DNA from: Alphaproteobacteria bacterium
GTDB lineage: Bacteria > Pseudomonadota > Alphaproteobacteria > Thalassobaculales > Thalassobaculaceae
NCBI GenBank assembly: GCA_013203465.1
Contig: JABMNR010000054.1
Location: forward strand, 1-35,520
Reading direction: 5' to 3'
Length of the DNA: 35,520 nucleotides
Shown: in pieces, positions 1-34,989 of the stretch
How positions within the stretch are numbered: the first letter of the stretch is position 1
Layout: each line of letters starts with the position of its first letter
Notes under the pieces: generated by a model
Told to the model about the DNA's origin: nothing
Databases searched by the model: none
Seen by the model: the letters and a program-made list of their open reading frames with translations, nothing else
Translations under genes and position numbers: made by a program

Positions 1-115
1 CGCAAAGGCGGCATATTGGCTTCACCCTCTGGGTTCCGCATCTTACCCGCCCTCCAACCAACCCAACATACTGATATGTATACCACAATCGCACAGTGCT
101 GGCGTCAAATGAACG

Positions 116-838
116 GTGCACATGGGAAATCCGGGTTCAAAGGACACCCGGCACAGGATCGCCCACGAATTGGGACATCACGGACGGGCGGACTACGTAA
201 TCGTTTCCATTGTCAGCTCACTGTCTGTGATTCTACTCCTACTCGTAGGCGCTCTAGTATTGGCAGGGATGCACTCGGATTTCCGGTTCGACAATCTCTG
301 GGGAGCCTATGCGATCATCGCGGGCTATGCCTTTATCGGGATCATGGGAATCCTCAATCGCCGCCGCATGTTTCATTGGCGAGAATATATGGCCGACACC
401 GTCGCTATGTCATTTGATCCCGAAGGATATCTGGTCTTTCTAAAGAGCCGGGCCATTCGGGAAAAATACACGAAAGCACGATCGAAGATGTGGGCGCTAA
501 ACAATGCGATAACCCACCCAACTTTTGAGGACCGTCTCGATTTTCAACAAGGAAGACATTCATCGAAGACACGTCCATCACTCCTAACGGTGTTAGCCAC
601 TCTCTTCACTGGCATCATCGTGTGCAGTATAAGCTTATCCAATTATGCGAATATCCTGAACTATGCTGACTGGAGCATTCCATTCTTTAAAGAAGATTTG
701 AATCTTTTCCATCAACTCAATATGACAATCCATTCCGAGTTCGCGCTTGTTCTTGTACTGATAGTTGCGTGGCTTGGGGTGTCTCTGGTTGCTGGAATGA
801 TGCGCATAAAGCGGGTAGAGCATGGAATGGCTAGTTGA
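116..838 (+). pseudogene. M48-family membrane metallopeptidase, N-terminally shortened
   Basis: The product is a probable zinc-dependent membrane protease of the M48 (HtpX/Ste24) type. The frame shows the HExxH zinc motif as AHELGHH at about residues 16-22, a later REYMAD segment (about residue 91) that fits the third zinc ligand, and THPTFEDR (about 135), which matches the THP-x-x-xR signature of the family. Four hydrophobic stretches lie at about 27-52, 61-80, 155-180 and 209-229. The first possible start is GTG 116, with ATG 122 as an alternative, because a TGA sits in frame at 110-112. M48 proteins normally have 50-150 residues before HExxH and here there are about 16. The same frame is open upstream of that TGA to the window edge. 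The gene is therefore probably broken by a nonsense change or truncated, though a short active form cannot be excluded. It is AT-richer than the core genes and overlaps the convergent gene by 8 bases. Confidence 0.6.
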
Positions 839-2835: not shown

Positions 2836-3999
2836 ATGAAAAGCTCGCACATCCGTAACCTGCTGGGCACTGTGGCAATGGTCTCCATGCTCGCCAGCAC
2901 CCCGGCCTTCTCGACCGAATACCGGCTCGTCTGGCCGGAGCGTTACGCAGGCGACGGCGAAGCCCTGAACACGGCAGCTTGGCAGGTCTTCGCCAACATC
3001 GTGGGGCCCGGTGACACGTTCAGCGTGTGGGACGGGACGAACAACAAGCGGATCGCCAAGATCGCCGTGCCCGACGACGAGCGCTATGCGGTGCTCAAGC
3101 GCAAGATGCGCAAGTTCGCTCGCGAGATCGCGCAGATCGGTGCTTTCTTGAAGGACCGGGCCTCCCCCGGTTCGTCGGCTTCGGGGAGTCTGGACCTGCT
3201 CTTGGTCCTGCGCGGCCTCGGCGACAACCGGATCGAGGCGAACGAGGACATCCACGTGCTGCTGATCGGCGCGCCGCTGCAAGTGACGCGGGACCCGGCG
3301 TGGTCGATGATCAGTGAGGACGGGGAGCTTCAGGTTCCGACCGACGCGGCGATGTTCTCGCGGGCCTACCGCACCCCCTACAGCGTCGAGGGGCGCGCGA
3401 ACGCGCTCGCCCGCAGTTTCGTGCATATGTGCACGCTCGGCCGTCCGAAGCTGGACCGCCTCCAAGACATGGCCCTGCGTCACGTCTGGGGCCGGTGGAC
3501 CGCCGCGCAGGGCGGCACGCTCGCGACCTGGGCGGATGACCTGTCGGTGTGCGTGGAGCGGCTCACAGCACGGGTTACGCAGCCGGTGGAAACAGGTGCG
3601 CCCGACTCGTCCCTTCCACCCGCCATGGTGCGCCCGGCCTGGAACGCGTCCGAACATGACGACGACGGTGAGGACAACGGCACCGAGAGGGTCCAGCCGG
3701 ACGTGTTCAACGTCTTCTTCAAGGCCGTACACCCACGGATGCGCGGCCTGATCGTCTATACCGGTGTGGAATACGCCCCCGCGAACTACCCGGCCCGCTA
3801 CAACAACGCGTGGTGCTACTTCAACAGCGCCGCCGGACGTGACGGGGTCCAGGTCCGGGTCAATGTCGGAGACATGGAGCCCGGCGATGAGCCCGTCTGG
3901 CACACCCCCTCCAAGCGGGAACTGGAGGCGGCGGGCGTGTCGCGCGAGGACTTTGCGCTGGCGCGCTCTGTGTGCCGGTTTCCGGCGCACGGCGGATAA
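2836..3999 (+). CDS. exported protein of the mobile module, unknown (387 aa)
   Basis: A typical Sec signal peptide is visible: MKSSH, a hydrophobic core at about 9-22, then TPAFS before the mature part. The start ATG 2836 has a good AAGGAGA ribosome-binding site. The mature protein has an alternating alpha/beta pattern with GDTFSVWDGTNNKR (about 56-69), an EDIHVLLIG strand (about 137) and an SVEGRANALARSF helix. From memory, similar exported proteins, sometimes thought to have a von Willebrand A-like fold, recur in alphaproteobacterial conjugative elements, but no MIDAS DxSxS motif is present here. An acidic, low-complexity linker (about 270-290) separates a C-terminal domain with two cysteines. 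It sits 12 bases after the membrane protein and 5 bases before the coupling ATPase, so co-transcription is likely. Function unknown. Confidence 0.65.
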   Translation: MKSSHIRNLLGTVAMVSMLASTPAFSTEYRLVWPERYAGDGEALNTAAWQVFANIVGPGDTFSVWDGTNNKRIAKIAVPDDERYAVLKRKMRKFAREIAQIGAFLKDRASPGSSASGSLDLLLVLRGLGDNRIEANEDIHVLLIGAPLQVTRDPAWSMISEDGELQVPTDAAMFSRAYRTPYSVEGRANALARSFVHMCTLGRPKLDRLQDMALRHVWGRWTAAQGGTLATWADDLSVCVERLTARVTQPVETGAPDSSLPPAMVRPAWNASEHDDDGEDNGTERVQPDVFNVFFKAVHPRMRGLIVYTGVEYAPANYPARYNNAWCYFNSAAGRDGVQVRVNVGDMEPGDEPVWHTPSKRELEAAGVSREDFALARSVCRFPAHGG

Positions 4000-4004
4000 A
4001 ACCG

Positions 4005-5855
4005 ATGTCGGCGCAAGGCGGACAGCGGCAGAACCGTATCCTTCCGGCCTTGGTCGTCGGCGGGTTGTCCATTGCGGCCTGGCGCGAGATCGGCGGGCCG
4101 CTGGTGAGCGCGGGCGGGATCAACATCCTGCCTGCCCTCGCGGTCCTTGGGATGGGGCTGTCGGGACTTGCCCTCGTAACAGACACGCTGACCCTGATCG
4201 CTGATCTTTGCGGCTACGCCAAGGCGCGCATTCCAACAGGCAGGAAGGGTAAGGCGGCGTTTGCCACGTCCCTGAAGGAAATCCGGCGCGATTTGGTCAA
4301 GCACGGCTGGGGGCCGCTATTCGGTACCTTCAAGGGCATGCCGGTTTTCCCGGACATCGAAGCCTCGGCCTATGTGATCGGGCCAAGCGGCAGCGGCAAG
4401 ACCACCCGGTTCACGATTCCCTCGATCATGGCGCTCAAGGGCCATCCGAAAGTCTTCTATTGCTACAAATCCGATATCACGCCGCAAGTCGCCAAGGTCC
4501 TGCGCAAGCGGGGCGAGCGGCTGCGGATCATCAATCTGGGCGGGCTCTACGAGAAAGAGATCGGCCAGGAGACCGACACCTACAATCCGCTGGTGCTGGT
4601 CAGCGAGACGTTCTTCCTCAAGGGAGGTCTCGAAGAGATCACCGATCTGGTCGAGGAACTGTCCTGCAATCTCGACCCCGATGACACCGGCCCCTCGGAT
4701 GTCAGCAACGGGAACTTCTGGAAGGAGAACAATCGCCGCCTGATCGGATTCGTGATCCTGATGGTGGTGCTTGTCGAAGGGGAAAACGGCACCCTCGGCC
4801 AATGTCTTCAGATGCTGAACGACAAGCAAAATCTGCTCAAGCACGCGCAATGGGCGGCGGGCCGTCTGGAGGCGGAACAGGACGGCGTCGTGTCGGTGGC
4901 GGCGATGCCGATCGATCAATCCCCCTGGGCGCATCTGCATGACCCGGAGGACGTCGCCAACTTCGCCAACTTCCTGTGCGCGCTGGCGTCCGGCATCGCC
5001 GACATCATGGAGCAGCCGGACGGCAAACTTGCCGATAGCATGCTGTCGGGCGCGCGGGTATCCGCGCTTGGCAAGTTCGACATCACCACCCGCGCCAACA
5101 AGCTCACAAGCACATGCAGCTTCCGGTTCTCCGAGCTGAAGGACAAGGGTGCCGTGACCACCGTTTCGGTGATGCTCGACCCCAACAAGATGGCAGCCCA
5201 TAGCAAGATCCTGGGCGTCCTGAACTACTGCATGCGCGTCGAGCTGCGCCGTCACGAGAACAAGGCCAAGAAGGTTTTCCTGCTGGCAGACGAGGCCGGG
5301 GTCCTGCCATGGCAGGATATGGAAAGCGATCTGACCACGCTCCGTGCATACGGGGTTATTCCGATCTTCGCCTTCCAAAATTTCCCCGCCTTCGCCAAGA
5401 GGCACGGCAAATCCGCGCTGGAGACCCTGCTTTCGGAGGCACAGGTCAAGCTGTTCATGCCGGGTCAGCGCAACCCCGAAACCCTGGCGATGATCGAGCG
5501 CATGTTGGCGCAGCAAAGCGTGATCGCGCGCAGCAATAACAGCATCGCTTCCAGCGGCATGTTCACCATGGACGGCTACGGCCTCCAGGAGGACGCCAAG
5601 CCGCTGCTCTCCGCCGAGGAGATCCGGCGGCTGGAGCAAGGCATCCTGATGATCGGCAACAACAAGCCGATGCTGGTGGATTTGCCGAGCATTGCCGAGA
5701 TCGCGCCCTGGCGGAAGCAGCTCGATCCGTCGCCGTTCTACGGCAAGCCTTACCTCAAACGCACCCGGCTGCGGATCAAACCCTATCCGCGCTCGCTGCT
5801 CTCCTGGCTGGGCTGGCTCGTAAAGGCCGTCTTCACGCTCGGGAGGTCCTCATGA
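4005..5855 (+). CDS. VirD4/TraG-like type IV coupling ATPase
   Basis: This is a membrane-anchored hexameric-type ATPase of the VirD4/TraG family, which delivers relaxase-DNA complexes to a type IV secretion channel. Two hydrophobic segments lie at about 11-28 and 40-66. Walker A is GPSGSGKTT at about 126-134, Walker B is VFLLADEAG at about 424-432, and a downstream AFQNFPAFAK segment (about 452) carries the Gln typical of this family. The length (616 aa) is normal. ATG 4005 is preferred over the upstream GTG 3972 because it follows the previous stop by 5 bases and has GGCGGA upstream. The stop overlaps the next gene by ATGA, so translational coupling is expected. No channel genes or relaxase are visible in the window. 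Confidence 0.85.
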   Translation: MSAQGGQRQNRILPALVVGGLSIAAWREIGGPLVSAGGINILPALAVLGMGLSGLALVTDTLTLIADLCGYAKARIPTGRKGKAAFATSLKEIRRDLVKHGWGPLFGTFKGMPVFPDIEASAYVIGPSGSGKTTRFTIPSIMALKGHPKVFYCYKSDITPQVAKVLRKRGERLRIINLGGLYEKEIGQETDTYNPLVLVSETFFLKGGLEEITDLVEELSCNLDPDDTGPSDVSNGNFWKENNRRLIGFVILMVVLVEGENGTLGQCLQMLNDKQNLLKHAQWAAGRLEAEQDGVVSVAAMPIDQSPWAHLHDPEDVANFANFLCALASGIADIMEQPDGKLADSMLSGARVSALGKFDITTRANKLTSTCSFRFSELKDKGAVTTVSVMLDPNKMAAHSKILGVLNYCMRVELRRHENKAKKVFLLADEAGVLPWQDMESDLTTLRAYGVIPIFAFQNFPAFAKRHGKSALETLLSEAQVKLFMPGQRNPETLAMIERMLAQQSVIARSNNSIASSGMFTMDGYGLQEDAKPLLSAEEIRRLEQGILMIGNNKPMLVDLPSIAEIAPWRKQLDPSPFYGKPYLKRTRLRIKPYPRSLLSWLGWLVKAVFTLGRSS

Positions 5856-6109
5856 AACGCGTCCTTTCCCTCGGCGGCGCTCTGGCCCGTGTCTTGGCCT
5901 GGCTGCTGAACCGCTGGCCCCTGCTTCTAGTCGCCGCCTTCTTCTACCTCGATGAAGGTCCGCATCTGCGTGTTGCCGGCACCTATCAGGGCTCACGGGA
6001 CTATCCCCGCTACATCTCCTGCACCTATCTGGGCAGCCGGGGCTTCGTGCCCGGCTATATGCCGGGTTGTCCGCTGATCGTGTGGATGAACGCGCGGGAG
6101 GGCGAGTGA
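5852..6109 (+). CDS. small membrane protein of the mobile module (85 aa)
   Basis: This unknown small protein is translationally coupled to the coupling ATPase (ATGA overlap at 5852-5855, GGGAGG upstream). One hydrophobic segment at about 6-32 (ARVLAWLLNRWPLLLVAAFF) acts as signal anchor or signal peptide. The rest is short and extracytoplasmic in character, with two cysteines (SCTYLGS and MPGCPL) that could form a disulfide in the periplasm. The stop TGA overlaps the next ATG by one base. It was probably kept in the operon for an envelope step of transfer, but this is inferred from position only. Confidence 0.6.
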   Translation: MKRVLSLGGALARVLAWLLNRWPLLLVAAFFYLDEGPHLRVAGTYQGSRDYPRYISCTYLGSRGFVPGYMPGCPLIVWMNAREGE

Positions 6110-6474
6110 TGAGCTTTGCCCGCGATCGTCTTGGGCCGTGGCTCGATGCCGGTGTGCTCCAACGTACCCCGCAGATGCACCGGCAGTTCGATCTGAACCG
6201 CGATCCGCTCATCGCCCGGCAGATCGCCGATCTCGACAAGACGGAAGCCGAGCGCCGCGAAGGTTCCGGCGCTGCTCCGCAGAAGGCGCGGGATAAACCC
6301 GCGCCTGCGCTCAAGCCGCCGCTTGACTTGCGCGGATATGCGGACAGGGACGGATGGCTGTCCGCCCAGCGCGACGCCGCATTCGCCCGCATGACCTCCG
6401 AGGACACGGGGCGCGGTCCGGATCGGGAGCACGACCGGCAGCCCGTCAGAACGTCACCGGGACTGTCGCTGTGA
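6109..6474 (+). CDS. hypothetical charged protein of the mobile module (121 aa)
   Basis: I do not recognise this one. ATG 6109 overlaps the previous stop (TGATG), which decides the start. The product is hydrophilic, with no membrane segment. It has a conserved-looking N-terminus (MSFARDRLGPWLDAGVLQ), a DxN-like stretch (FDLNRDPLIARQIADLDK, about 33-50), then a proline/alanine-rich linker and a disordered, Arg-rich C-terminus. A helper or relaxosome accessory role would fit the place after the coupling protein, but nothing in the sequence proves it. Confidence 0.55.
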   Translation: MSFARDRLGPWLDAGVLQRTPQMHRQFDLNRDPLIARQIADLDKTEAERREGSGAAPQKARDKPAPALKPPLDLRGYADRDGWLSAQRDAAFARMTSEDTGRGPDREHDRQPVRTSPGLSL

Positions 6475-6503
6475 CGGTCCCACCACACCGAAAGGAACAC
6501 ATC

Positions 6504-6908
6504 ATGAGCGACGAAAAGAACCAAGGTCCCCTTCAAACCCTGCGCGACGGGGCTGTGTTCGCCAAGCTCTGGCAACAGGAAGGCAAGAACGGCCCCTTCG
6601 TATCGGTCACGCCGGGCCGGACCTACCGGGACGAGCAATCCGGAGAATACCGGGAATCCCAATCCTTCAGCGGCGCCGACATCCTGAAAGTCCATGCGCT
6701 GATGTTGGAAGCGCACCAAGAGGCCGGAAAATGGCGGGAGCACTTCAAGCAACAGAAGCAAAACCGTCAGGCCGAACTTCCGATGCAGCCTGAGCAGGTT
6801 CAACCGCAGCAGCAGGGTCTCGCGGCGCAACGGGACGCGGCGCTGGCCCATGCCAAAGCTCCGGAGCCTGCCGCATCCCCCGATCAGGACAGAATGCCGG
6901 AGCACTGA
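6504..6908 (+). CDS. conserved hypothetical protein of the mobile module (134 aa)
   Basis: The start ATG 6504 follows AAAGGA at 6491-6496. The N-terminal domain (about 8-75) contains LRDGAVFAKLWQQEG, FVSVTPGRTYRDE and SFSGADILKVHALMLEAHQE. From memory, this arrangement (LRDG, then a beta strand, an R-x-Y-R/K-D motif and an S-x-SFSG-x-D-hydrophobic helix) recurs in small proteins next to relaxase or replication genes on proteobacterial plasmids and integrative elements. I cannot attach a function. The C-terminal 55 residues are Gln/Ala/Pro-rich and probably disordered. It is the last gene of the run, with AT-rich intergenic DNA after it. Confidence 0.6.
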   Translation: MSDEKNQGPLQTLRDGAVFAKLWQQEGKNGPFVSVTPGRTYRDEQSGEYRESQSFSGADILKVHALMLEAHQEAGKWREHFKQQKQNRQAELPMQPEQVQPQQQGLAAQRDAALAHAKAPEPAASPDQDRMPEH

Positions 6909-6938
6909 AATTCAGCCGAATATATCCGTATGTTTTTC

Positions 6939-6980
6939 TTGTAATGCGAACAAAACTAGAGTAATGTTCCCGTTTTGTTC
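6939..6980 (+). promoter_or_regulatory. SOS (LexA) box and putative promoter of the recombinase operon
   Basis: GTTC at 6966-6969 and GTTC at 6977-6980 are separated by exactly seven bases (CCGTTTT). This is a perfect match to GTTC-N7-GTTC, the LexA site of Alphaproteobacteria. A weak promoter can be read as TTGTAA (6939-6944), 17 bases, TAATGT (6962-6967), so LexA would cover the -10 region. A 9-base inverted repeat, GAACAAAAC (6948-6956) with GTTTTGTTC (6972-6980), overlaps it. The box is 60 bases before the small gene that starts the recombinase operon. Confidence 0.75.
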
Positions 6981-7040
6981 TAAACAGAAAAACACGGATG
7001 GAGGCAAGCGAATGAAAGTGATTTGAGAGGACCAGACACC

Positions 7041-7403
7041 ATGACCAAGCAACACAAACAAGACGGGAGACACGACACAGAAACCATTTCCTCGGAGCCC
7101 AAGCCCGCGATCATTCTCGATGCCGGGAAATACCGATCCGAGATCGCGGAACTGGGCCTGACGGCGGATCAGGAGCGCGAATACATTGAGGTCGTCTGGG
7201 CCATCCTGTTGCAGGCCATGCAGCTCGGCATTCGGCTCGAATTCGAGCCGAAAAGCTGTGGACAAGATGCCGGAACGCCGTCTCCGCCGCCCATTCCGTA
7301 CGGCGATGCGGTAGACTTGAAGGATAGAGAATTTCAGTCGAATTTTAGCGATGCCGTCGGGCAAGGTGATGTCCAGGCAGGAAAGGAAACCGGTCATGGA
7401 TAG
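7041..7403 (+). CDS. small protein paired with the serine recombinase (120 aa)
   Basis: The start ATG 7041 is set by AGAGGA at 7026-7031. The central part reads IILDAGKYRSEIAELGLTA, then DQEREYIEVVWAILLQAM, a helical stretch ending in an aliphatic segment. Its stop (TAG 7401-7403) overlaps the recombinase start by 8 bases, so the two are translationally coupled and probably act together. From memory, short proteins with this DAxxYRxxIxxLxLTxxQExE pattern often precede large serine recombinases in alphaproteobacterial islands. A recombination directionality factor would be an attractive but untested guess. It is the first gene after the SOS box. Confidence 0.6.
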   Translation: MTKQHKQDGRHDTETISSEPKPAIILDAGKYRSEIAELGLTADQEREYIEVVWAILLQAMQLGIRLEFEPKSCGQDAGTPSPPPIPYGDAVDLKDREFQSNFSDAVGQGDVQAGKETGHG

Positions 7404-9099
7404 TGATTTAGAGGCCATGCCGAAACAGGCGGTGATCTACTGCCGGGTCAGCGACCACAAGCAAACCACCGATGGCGACGGCCTCGCCTCAAAAGAAACC
7501 CGCTGCCGGGAGTTCGCCAAGAACCGGGGGCTTGGGGCCGCACGCGTGTTCATCGACGATATCTCCGGCAAGTTCGCCGACCGTCCCGGCATGCGCGATC
7601 TGTTGATCTTCCTGCACGAGGCCCCCGACCGGACCTATGCCGTGGTGATCGATGATCTCTCGCGGCTGGCCCGTGACGTTGAAGCCTACCGCGCGCTGCG
7701 TCGCGCCATATTGGAAGCGGGCGGCGTGCTGATGTCGCCGTCCATCAAGTTCGGTGAGGATTCCGATTCCACGCTTATCGAGAATTTATTGGCCAGCGTT
7801 GCCCAGCACCAGCGCCAGAAGAATGGCGAGCAAACCAAGAACCGCATGTGGGGCCGCGCCAAGAACGGTTATTGGGTGTTCCAGCCCATGCCCGGTTACC
7901 GCTACGACAAGGTCAGTGGCCATAACAAGCTGCTGGTGCGTGATGAGCCCACCGCAAGCGTCATGACGGAAGTTCTAGAAGGATTTGCATCTGGTCGGTT
8001 CGAGACCCAGACGGAGGTCAAGGAGTTCCTTGATAACCATCCGCTCTATCCGAAGGGCAAGGCGGGATGTGTTCACTACACCCGCGTCAAGACCATGCTC
8101 ACCAATCCGCTCTACGCCGGATATGTCGATATCCCCAATTGGGGTATTCACATGCAGGAGGGCAAGCACGAAGCCCTGATCGACTTCGCCACGCTTCACC
8201 GGATACAGGATCGCCTGGCGGGTGGCGCGAAGGCTCCCAAACGCGCCGATATCCGCGAGGACTTTCCCTTGCGGGGCTTCGTATCCTGCGATTGTTGCGG
8301 CGAGCCTTACACGTCTTGCTGGTCACAAGGCTCTCACAAGCGCTATCCCTATTATCTATGCGACACCAAGGGCTGTCCCGAATACCGGAAATCCATCCGC
8401 AAGGAATTGATTGAGGGGGAATTCGAGGACGTGTTGACGGCTCTCAAGCCCGCGCCGGGGATGGTGGCGCTCGCCAAATCCATGTTCCGCGACATGTGGG
8501 ACCAGCTTCACGGTGTCCAGACAGCCTCCGTCGATGCGCTGAAAGCCGAGCTACGAAAGCTTGAGGCTGCCTCTGAGCGGCTGATGGACCGCATCCTCGA
8601 AGCGGATGGGTCGCTCGTGGCCAGCTACGAGAAGCGTCTGAGCGCGATGGAACGAGATAAGGTGGCGATCCGCGAAAAGCTTGCCGGATCGGTCCGTCCC
8701 GCCGCCAGCTTCGACAGGGTTTATCGAACGGCCTTCAGCTTCCTCGAAAATCCGCAGAAACTCTGGCACTCCAGCCAACTCGAGCACCGCCGCGCGGTGC
8801 TGCGAATGGCCTTCAAGACCCACCTGCGGTACAGGCGAAATGAGGGTTATCGAACGCCAAAAATCACCTTACCATTCAAGATGTTAGGCAGTTTCGACGG
8901 CTTAAAAGAGAAGATGGTGCCCCCGGTCCGACTCGAACGGACACTCCCTTGCGAGAAACAGATTTTGAGTCTGTCGCGTCTACCAGTTCCGCCACGGGGG
9001 CTCCGGGCATCTGGGCCGCACTATGACGATGCCGATGCGCGAAATCAACGTGGCTTGGACGCGTTGTCAGCTCAATGCAGAAACGCCAGCAGTACGTAG
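7396..9099 (+). CDS. large serine recombinase (integrase/excisionase) of the element
   Basis: This is a site-specific recombinase that would integrate and excise the element. The N-terminal resolvase domain has IYCRVSDHKQ with the nucleophile Ser19, then the DDLSRLARD segment (about 90-100). The central recombinase domain (about 150-275) contains LLVRDEP and TNPLYAGYVDIP. A zinc ribbon follows with CDCCGE and CDTKGC pairs (about 298-335), then a coiled-coil region (about 385-440). ATG 7396 is preferred for its AAGGA site; ATG 7417 is possible. The frame is 567 codons, but from about codon 507 (position 8914) it is encoded by the antisense of tRNA-Leu and then host DNA, overlapping the convergent oxygenase gene by 28 bases. 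The original C-terminus in the excised circle is therefore probably different. SOS control is likely. Confidence 0.85.
   Translation: MDSDLEAMPKQAVIYCRVSDHKQTTDGDGLASKETRCREFAKNRGLGAARVFIDDISGKFADRPGMRDLLIFLHEAPDRTYAVVIDDLSRLARDVEAYRALRRAILEAGGVLMSPSIKFGEDSDSTLIENLLASVAQHQRQKNGEQTKNRMWGRAKNGYWVFQPMPGYRYDKVSGHNKLLVRDEPTASVMTEVLEGFASGRFETQTEVKEFLDNHPLYPKGKAGCVHYTRVKTMLTNPLYAGYVDIPNWGIHMQEGKHEALIDFATLHRIQDRLAGGAKAPKRADIREDFPLRGFVSCDCCGEPYTSCWSQGSHKRYPYYLCDTKGCPEYRKSIRKELIEGEFEDVLTALKPAPGMVALAKSMFRDMWDQLHGVQTASVDALKAELRKLEAASERLMDRILEADGSLVASYEKRLSAMERDKVAIREKLAGSVRPAASFDRVYRTAFSFLENPQKLWHSSQLEHRRAVLRMAFKTHLRYRRNEGYRTPKITLPFKMLGSFDGLKEKMVPPVRLERTLPCEKQILSLSRLPVPPRGLRASGPHYDDADARNQRGLDALSAQCRNASST
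8915..9001 (-). tRNA. tRNA-Leu (anticodon CAA)
   Basis: Read on the minus strand, the acceptor GCCCCCG (from 9001) pairs with CGGGGGC, followed by discriminator A and an encoded CCA at 8917-8915. The anticodon stem ACAGA/TCTGT encloses the loop CTCAAAA, giving anticodon CAA. A long variable arm and a T arm with GTTCGAGTC are present, as expected for a class II tRNA-Leu. It decodes UUG. The 3' end marks the junction with the mobile element, and the gene is intact after integration. Confidence 0.95.
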
Positions 9100-34960: not shown

Positions 34961-34989
34961 TTAAGCTGAACAAATCAAGAACGTAAACC
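34961..34989 (+). promoter_or_regulatory. SOS (LexA) box upstream of nrdJ
   Basis: GAAC (34968-34971) and GAAC (34979-34982) are separated by exactly seven bases (AAATCAA), so the minus strand reads GTTC-N7-GTTC. A weak promoter, TTAAGC (34961-34966), 17 bases, TAAACC (34984-34989), would place the box between -35 and -10. The box ends 40 bases before the nrdJ ATG. Confidence 0.65.

Follow-up and report, generated by a model that had tools for sequence, protein, structure and literature searches.

A putative LexA operator before the partner and recombinase genes of an element at an alphaproteobacterial tRNA-Leu gene

The window, the whole stretch of 35,520 nucleotides analysed here, probably contains an element integrated in tRNA-Leu(CAA) whose operon of a small partner gene and a large serine recombinase gene is repressed by LexA, so that the SOS response would lead to excision or insertion of the element. 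This reading draws on features that can be read from the DNA, namely a conserved box, a gene pair, a location at the 3' end of a tRNA gene, a read-through in fixed frame and a constraint on the DNA at the end of the recombinase gene.

The SOS box and its conservation

The putative LexA operator (SOS box) lies on the + strand at 6966..6980 (GTTCCCGTTTTGTTC) and is indicated by motif scans, by the relatives and by the alignment with Thalassobaculum litoreum. An exact GTTCN7GTTC site at 6966-6980 had been claimed by the sequence-only reading, and it is indeed present on the + strand with 0 mismatches. GTTCN7GTTC is the LexA motif of Caulobacter as given in Table 1 of PMC9578287. Taken alone this motif is weak evidence and conservation decides: the window contains three matches versus 1.07 expected, a number equalled in 10 of 100 shuffles, and genome-wide 118 matches are found versus 102 for the reversed control pattern, for which reason the bare motif count was rejected as evidence. 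When the spacer ends in A/T-T, as in the window box, 24 genome sites compare with 5 control matches, and 8 of the 24, again including the window box, have the extended form T-GTTC-N4-WWT-GTTC-T. Some of the 24 sites lie, as judged by eye, just 5' of genes for DNA polymerase IV, topoisomerase, radical-SAM protein and ribonucleotide reductase; several others fall within long frames and probably arose by chance. The host genome encodes one protein with a LexA_DNA_bind domain (56.1 bits, above cut-off), and upstream of this lexA gene GTACCATCTTTGTTC was found by eye, which is one mismatch away from the motif and ends 52 nt before the start. A further box in the window (GTTCTTGATTTGTTC, 34968-34982, - strand) precedes by 40 nt an open frame that by eye resembles a B12-dependent ribonucleotide reductase and is cut by the contig end.

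Relatives of the recombinase were searched for in 385 genomes of the class, with at most three or four candidates scored per genome, which yielded two more recombinase copies in the host genome and, in other genomes, 25 matches with E values of 1e-100 or below. For a second sample the family alignment was compared with named genomes and the best 80 of at least 581 candidates were taken, so that counts lean to near relatives. Together with the 15 usable of 17 virus-collection contigs these 80 genome loci make 95 loci, and the 90 of them with at least 520 bp of upstream DNA are the denominator for the box counts. The samples overlap (L033/L105, L034/L109, L036/L127 and L037/L141 each denote a single place, and L035/L118 are nearly identical), which slightly inflates the totals of 117 and 113 given below. 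L197 and L198 (31% identity, partial) were left out of all counts, and organisms are named as in the records, several of which are metagenome bins that may be misassigned (e.g. L110).

In the first sample an exact coding-strand box was found in 10 of 21 family loci and in none of six more distant recombinases; nine of these boxes are located 424-478 bp upstream of the recombinase and one at 826. Among the 90 relatives with sufficient upstream DNA, 21 have a coding-strand box at -520..-340 from the recombinase, as compared to one with the box on the opposite strand of the same stretch, none with the reversed motif and none with the box in a stretch of equal length within the recombinase gene. 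Exact upstream sites on the opposite strand are present in L136, L163 and L196, and in L044 the exact motif is found on that strand at -682. Most of the 30 distinct boxes of both samples are flanked by a T on either side and have a spacer that is A/T-rich at its end. A matrix score above the 99th percentile of shuffles was reached by 42 of 113 loci, about a third, and since most remaining loci score far lower, the box appears to be a trait that is largely present or absent. As by this score the box is missing in some two thirds of the recombinase family, SOS control would be non-essential there. According to host group, 18 of 60 alphaproteobacterial versus 1 of 17 other loci carry a box (Fisher P 0.056; not counting the unassigned L118 and two loci with little upstream sequence), which does no more than suggest a link to alphaproteobacterial hosts. 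On a tree of 104 recombinases, built after removal of three duplicates and of ten loci whose frames are short or broken, and in which L042 (box at -826) and L196 (opposite-strand box) were counted as box-bearing, the box changes 16 times versus 26.9 times in shuffles, none of 500 shuffles being as low, and at least 8 changes are forced by starred branches. The 16 changes led to rejection of the box as one ancestral trait; it is clustered yet was often gained or lost. An Escherichia coli-type LexA box (CTGTN8ACAG) was seen upstream in 1 of 95 loci, L108 of Nitrosomonas. In L133, L154 (Nitrospirales) and L153 the motif GTAC-N7-GTTC followed by T lies on the opposite strand 457-559 bp upstream, and this may be a different LexA box.

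The T. litoreum locus (L102), the nearest relative, is collinear with 4034-8920 of the window at 77% DNA identity. An alignment of these two sequences shows the half-sites of the box and the T on either side of it unchanged, while 4 of the 7 spacer bases differ. A paralogue of the recombinase in the same genome, on contig C149, is preceded by GTTCTCTATTTGTTC at 423 bp versus 433 in the window; an additional box is located at C149:12236. In the third copy, on contig C140, the reading frame is disrupted, and that contig contains no exact box. Since place and strand of the box are conserved, its half-sites are kept and the box of the paralogue is found at much the same distance, LexA is likely to repress the operon of small gene and recombinase, and LexA control of this operon, as proposed by the sequence-only reading, is well supported by sequence (21 of 90 versus 1, 0 and 0 of 90; half-sites kept). 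It could be argued that the box is a chance occurrence or a relic and the operon outside LexA control, as the bare motif is common in the genome and most relatives do without a box; however, conservation of position and strand relative to the controls, the kept half-sites and the paralogue with the same layout make this very improbable.

LexA would act there on a putative promoter at 6939..6967 (+), found by eye, with a -35 element TTGTAA at 6939-6944, a 17-bp spacer and a -10 element TAATGT at 6962-6967. The box had been placed over the -10, which holds insofar as the -10 ends at 6967 and its last two bases therefore coincide with the start of the box; on the other hand, a consensus promoter scan of the upstream region found no promoter at its threshold. 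The -10 region is unchanged in T. litoreum, and in 10 of the 30 boxes, counted by eye, the box fills a 17-bp gap between TTGnnn and TAnnnT. Nested 9-bp inverted repeats surround the box (6931-6939/6986-6994 and 6948-6956/6972-6980), and their ATCCGT...ACGGAT arms are also found in T. litoreum. Further downstream, at 7012-7026, a frame of four codons (MKVI, stop) follows a GGAGG upstream of the small gene, and at the matching place in T. litoreum there is likewise a frame of four codons, though diverged (MTAN, stop); this frame is possibly a leader or due to chance.

The recombinase gene, its tRNA target and the att site

The large serine recombinase is encoded at 7396..9099 (+; ATG at 7396) and contains in this order the domains Resolvase (79.3 bits), Recombinase (21.4 bits) and the zinc ribbon Zn_ribbon_recom (34.2 bits), each above cut-off. 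Residues R16, V17 and S18 are invariant in 24 aligned recombinases, and this N-terminal RVS motif presumably contains the catalytic serine. Against the NCBIfam models for CcrB, CcrC and CcrA the protein scores 53.9, 45.8 and 25.4 bits, below the cut-offs of 900, 900 and 700. Among phage records 127 match the recombinase, with 23-29% identity among the 40 matches listed, and 34 plasmids match, the nearest among the 20 matches listed having 35% identity over 44% of the protein.

The part of the recombinase conserved in the family ends at about 8916 and the remainder consists of antisense tRNA-Leu and chromosome. The tRNA-Leu(CAA) gene at 8915..9001 (-) would be the integration target, as similarity to T. 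litoreum ends at 8920, six nucleotides into the tRNA, and the element of T. litoreum resides in tRNA-Leu(GAG) instead. The operon had been drawn to end at 9099, which is correct for the stop codon; this stop is reached, though, only by read-through of the tRNA-Leu gene, which had gone unmentioned. A complete antisense tRNA is found within 80 nt of the conserved recombinase end in 68 of the 80 genome loci. In the other 12, two contigs end too soon and ten are without a complete tRNA, comprising one tmRNA (L173), seven loci that keep only the 3' half of the tRNA and two that keep only its last 16-17 nt (the latter nine by eye). With the virus-collection contigs, a full tRNA is present in 72 of 95 loci, distributed over the isotypes Arg (40), Ala (7), Leu (6), Ser (6), Phe (4), Thr (3) and Val (2) and one each for Glu, Lys, Tyr and Met. 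The recombinase is thus a member of a large-serine-recombinase family that abuts the 3' ends of tRNA genes of many isotypes and of one tmRNA gene. In three genomes of the host's family tRNA-Leu(CAA) is found beside the same neighbour gene with three different 3' flanks, and the native 3' flank of this tRNA gene is therefore not deducible.

The end of the recombinase gene also appears to carry a DNA site. In 71 loci third codon positions are constrained 40-29 nt before the tRNA: the Phe codon there is TTC in all 66 Phe-bearing loci (background 51%), and the conserved codon nine bases further is TTA in 51 of the 71, TTA accounting for 7.1% of the other Leu codons in these genes. Such constraint on third positions points to a DNA site inside the gene, which is probably the recombinase's own att arm. 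In the window the putative att-arm motif TTCAAGATGTTA is located at 8875..8886 (+), likewise 40-29 nt before the tRNA end, and the right end of the element (attR) lies probably in about the first 17 nt of tRNA-Leu. The att site was inspected by eye for dyad symmetry, and none is claimed. In six relatives (L160, L164, L185, L190, L191, L195) and in the C149 copy the tRNA match stops, by eye, after about 11-17 nt and the frame ends about 6-39 codons later; these loci may stem from free circles, from tandem copies or from decay of an end. In seven loci (L108, L110, L111, L112, L120, L150, L158; by eye) the tRNA stops at the anticodon loop. These were considered as attP and dropped. Since in L158 a complete copy of the tRNA follows 3.1 kb further on, with two scanned, methyltransferase-like genes in between, and since in L111 and L120 a tyrosine phage integrase follows closely behind, these three are read as second insertions at another sub-site. 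Two classes of element would in such cases share one tRNA, a serine element at the 3' end and a tyrosine element (L111, L120) or another insert (L158) at the anticodon loop.

What does the read-through into the tRNA mean? The recombinase gene enters the tRNA end in one and the same frame in 69 of 72 loci, and of the three that deviate two have broken recombinase frames; the stop codons lie 14-1214 nt past the tRNA end. It is rather likely that the tail is a functionless by-product of an att site situated in the end of the recombinase gene. Its length varies over the range just given, the near-fixed distance between att-arm motif and tRNA would fix the frame of read-through, and for DsiB, a similar case, the authors also offer a trivial explanation (PMC3146451). 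What a by-product explains less well is that the frame is kept so regularly and that in the 69 loci in which the stop is visible none lies before the tRNA. Alternatively, it could be imagined that read-through acts as a state switch, the recombinase ending shortly past the att core in the free circle and carrying an antisense-tRNA tail in the chromosome, and that this tail and the SOS-co-induced partner together set the direction, with a target of the universal CCA end and T-loop of tRNAs opening almost any tRNA or tmRNA gene to the element. This proposal is improbable; if it were true, the enzyme made after integration would differ from the integrating enzyme.

The partner gene, the proposed mechanism and known systems

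The small partner gene (7041..7403, +, 120 aa) overlaps the recombinase gene (ATG 7396) by 8 nt. In a profile search 105 of 117 loci had the small gene ahead of the recombinase, whether or not a box was present; of the 12 without it, three are cut by contig ends. Of 36 whole genomes searched, 19 gave hits, 26 in total; 25 lie no more than about 520 bp upstream of a recombinase from the 385-genome search, the exception being in G028, and the 17 genomes chosen for having no recombinase match in that search gave none. It is a dedicated partner of the recombinase. The protein has no Pfam hit above cut-off and no hit in NCBIfam or PHROG, and in the predicted fold only a helical hairpin (residues 28-61) is confident, the ends being of low confidence. 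The coupled gene had been suggested to set the direction of the recombinase; what the data bear out is the conserved association itself, seen in 105 of 117 loci and in 25 of the 26 hits from whole genomes. Whether it is instead an obligatory partner or regulator used in both directions is close to an even question, tilting slightly towards no: its presence irrespective of the box, its position beside the recombinase in nearly all genome hits and the overlap of its coding region with the recombinase start in the window would fit such a role, for which a fold confident only in a helical hairpin offers little.

We propose the following course of events. LexA bound at 6966-6980 would block the promoter of the two-gene operon. 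Upon DNA damage, or in the presence of single-stranded DNA during conjugation, RecA-driven cleavage of LexA would relieve the repression, and the 120-aa partner and the large serine recombinase would be made together. The recombinase would then act on att sites, one of which would span the 3' ends of its own gene and of the tRNA, and the element would leave, or would insert after single-strand entry into a new cell. We infer LexA binding, induction and excision as well as any role of the small protein. The recombination half of this mechanism is drawn from the recombinase family and from the precedents phiPam-6, DsiB and LexA-controlled ccrC, and it is plausible that DNA damage causes excision.

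The box could also serve mainly entry, in which case single-stranded DNA arriving by conjugation would elicit the SOS response in the recipient and the recombinase would integrate the element and not excise it. A serine recombinase alone usually favours integration, the element in the window encodes a VirD4/TraG-type coupling protein (3972..5855, +; T4SS-DNA_transf and TraG-D_C domains; 82% identical in T. litoreum) and a related element encodes a MobA/VirD2 relaxase. SOS induction by conjugative entry is, moreover, described in a review (PMC9578287). However, the partner gene is co-expressed and would hinder integration if it were a directionality factor, and a role confined mainly to entry seems rather unlikely. 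SOS induction could as well drive insertion as excision.

Several known systems share parts of this layout. The integrase of integrons, IntI, is a tyrosine recombinase and serves cassette capture, not element integration. Its promoter is directly repressed by LexA (Guerin et al., 2009, as cited in PMC9578287). Direct LexA repression of the large serine recombinase of a mobile element is found for ccrC of SCCmec (Liu et al., 2017, as cited in PMC9728531 and PMC9578287), which differs in recombinase family, in its protein-gene target rlmH and in its Gram-positive LexA box; the study in PMC9728531 itself reports no significant ccr induction under its conditions. The comparison with SXT made in the sequence-only reading is apt in that SOS raises mobility and loose, as that reading itself noted, in that SXT/R391 acts via the RecA-stimulated element repressor SetR, not via LexA at the recombinase promoter (PMC9578287). 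DsiB is a 540-residue ssrA-specific serine recombinase of Dehalococcoides genomic islands with a 20-bp repeat (PMC3146451). Like the recombinase studied here it acts at the 3' end of an RNA gene and its gene has no stop inside the element and enters ssrA, and L173 of the window's family is also located at a tmRNA gene. In contrast, the window's family resides mostly in tRNA genes of many isotypes and has an SOS box in about a third of its loci, and the small partner in the window gives no Resolvase hit, whereas DsiA, the partner of DsiB, is a smaller serine recombinase. The prophage phiPam-6 of Paracoccus aminophilus, which is induced by mitomycin C, likewise has a serine recombinase at a tRNA gene (tRNA-Met) and a 17-bp repeat ending in CCAT (PMC3925955; PMC6536676), in which we would see the 3' CCA end of the tRNA plus one base. 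Differently from the element in the window, phiPam-6 is a phage and not a mobilizable element, and as it is likened here by description it may or may not share the recombinase family.

No account of a tRNA-gene family of serine recombinases with this layout, or of its LexA control, was recognised in full-text searches of open-licence papers, outside of which most subscription papers lie. According to a review of mobilizable elements, the 3' ends of tRNA genes are sites of tyrosine integrases, whereas serine recombinases disrupt dispensable genes (PMC5704250), and a widespread family of serine integrases at tRNA and tmRNA genes would widen this picture. The main text of a large recombinase survey (PMC10083194) makes no mention of tRNA, and as its targets are disrupted genes clustered as proteins, tRNA-targeting enzymes may be overlooked by it. 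Such a family would also offer new enzymes for site-specific integration, and LexA control in a subset of it makes the link between DNA damage and mobility in Alphaproteobacteria testable by mutation of one operator.

The remainder of the element and its relatives

What the window contains of the integrated element is its right end, and the element is probably mobilizable. Besides the coupling protein it encodes two small proteins of related elements, one directly after the coupling protein (5852..6109, +; found by tblastn in 8 loci) and one upstream of the box (6501..6908, +; in 13 fetched loci at 8 distinct places, also by tblastn). The contig begins inside the element, whose left end was not found, and a scan of 10 window proteins recognised none of them as a relaxase. 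No convincing left repeat was seen in five of six other genomes searched, the 11-bp candidates in G341 and G380 being too short to be trusted. An exact 16-nt pattern search of 11 genomes gave no left copy for serine elements, and a search with the Jiella flank matched only its own genome. The best but not certain left end comes from a relative (G121), in which 21 kb separate the recombinase from a 16-bp copy of the tRNA-Ala end that lacks the first T of this end. The element so delimited encodes a MobA/VirD2 relaxase, VirD4 and HamA adjoining a helicase.

HamA and helicase of this element (L076, 3692-7197) are presumably those of a Hachiman defence system. Near the recombinase of L126 lies an AbiJ-like gene (1096-2286, -), and these genes are possibly defence cargo. 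Behind the paralogous recombinase on C149 a RelE-like toxin gene is located (L062, 11150-11659), and the end of that contig (L062, 13711-13750) is an exact inverted 40-bp match to window 96-135, either an assembly overlap or a repeat.
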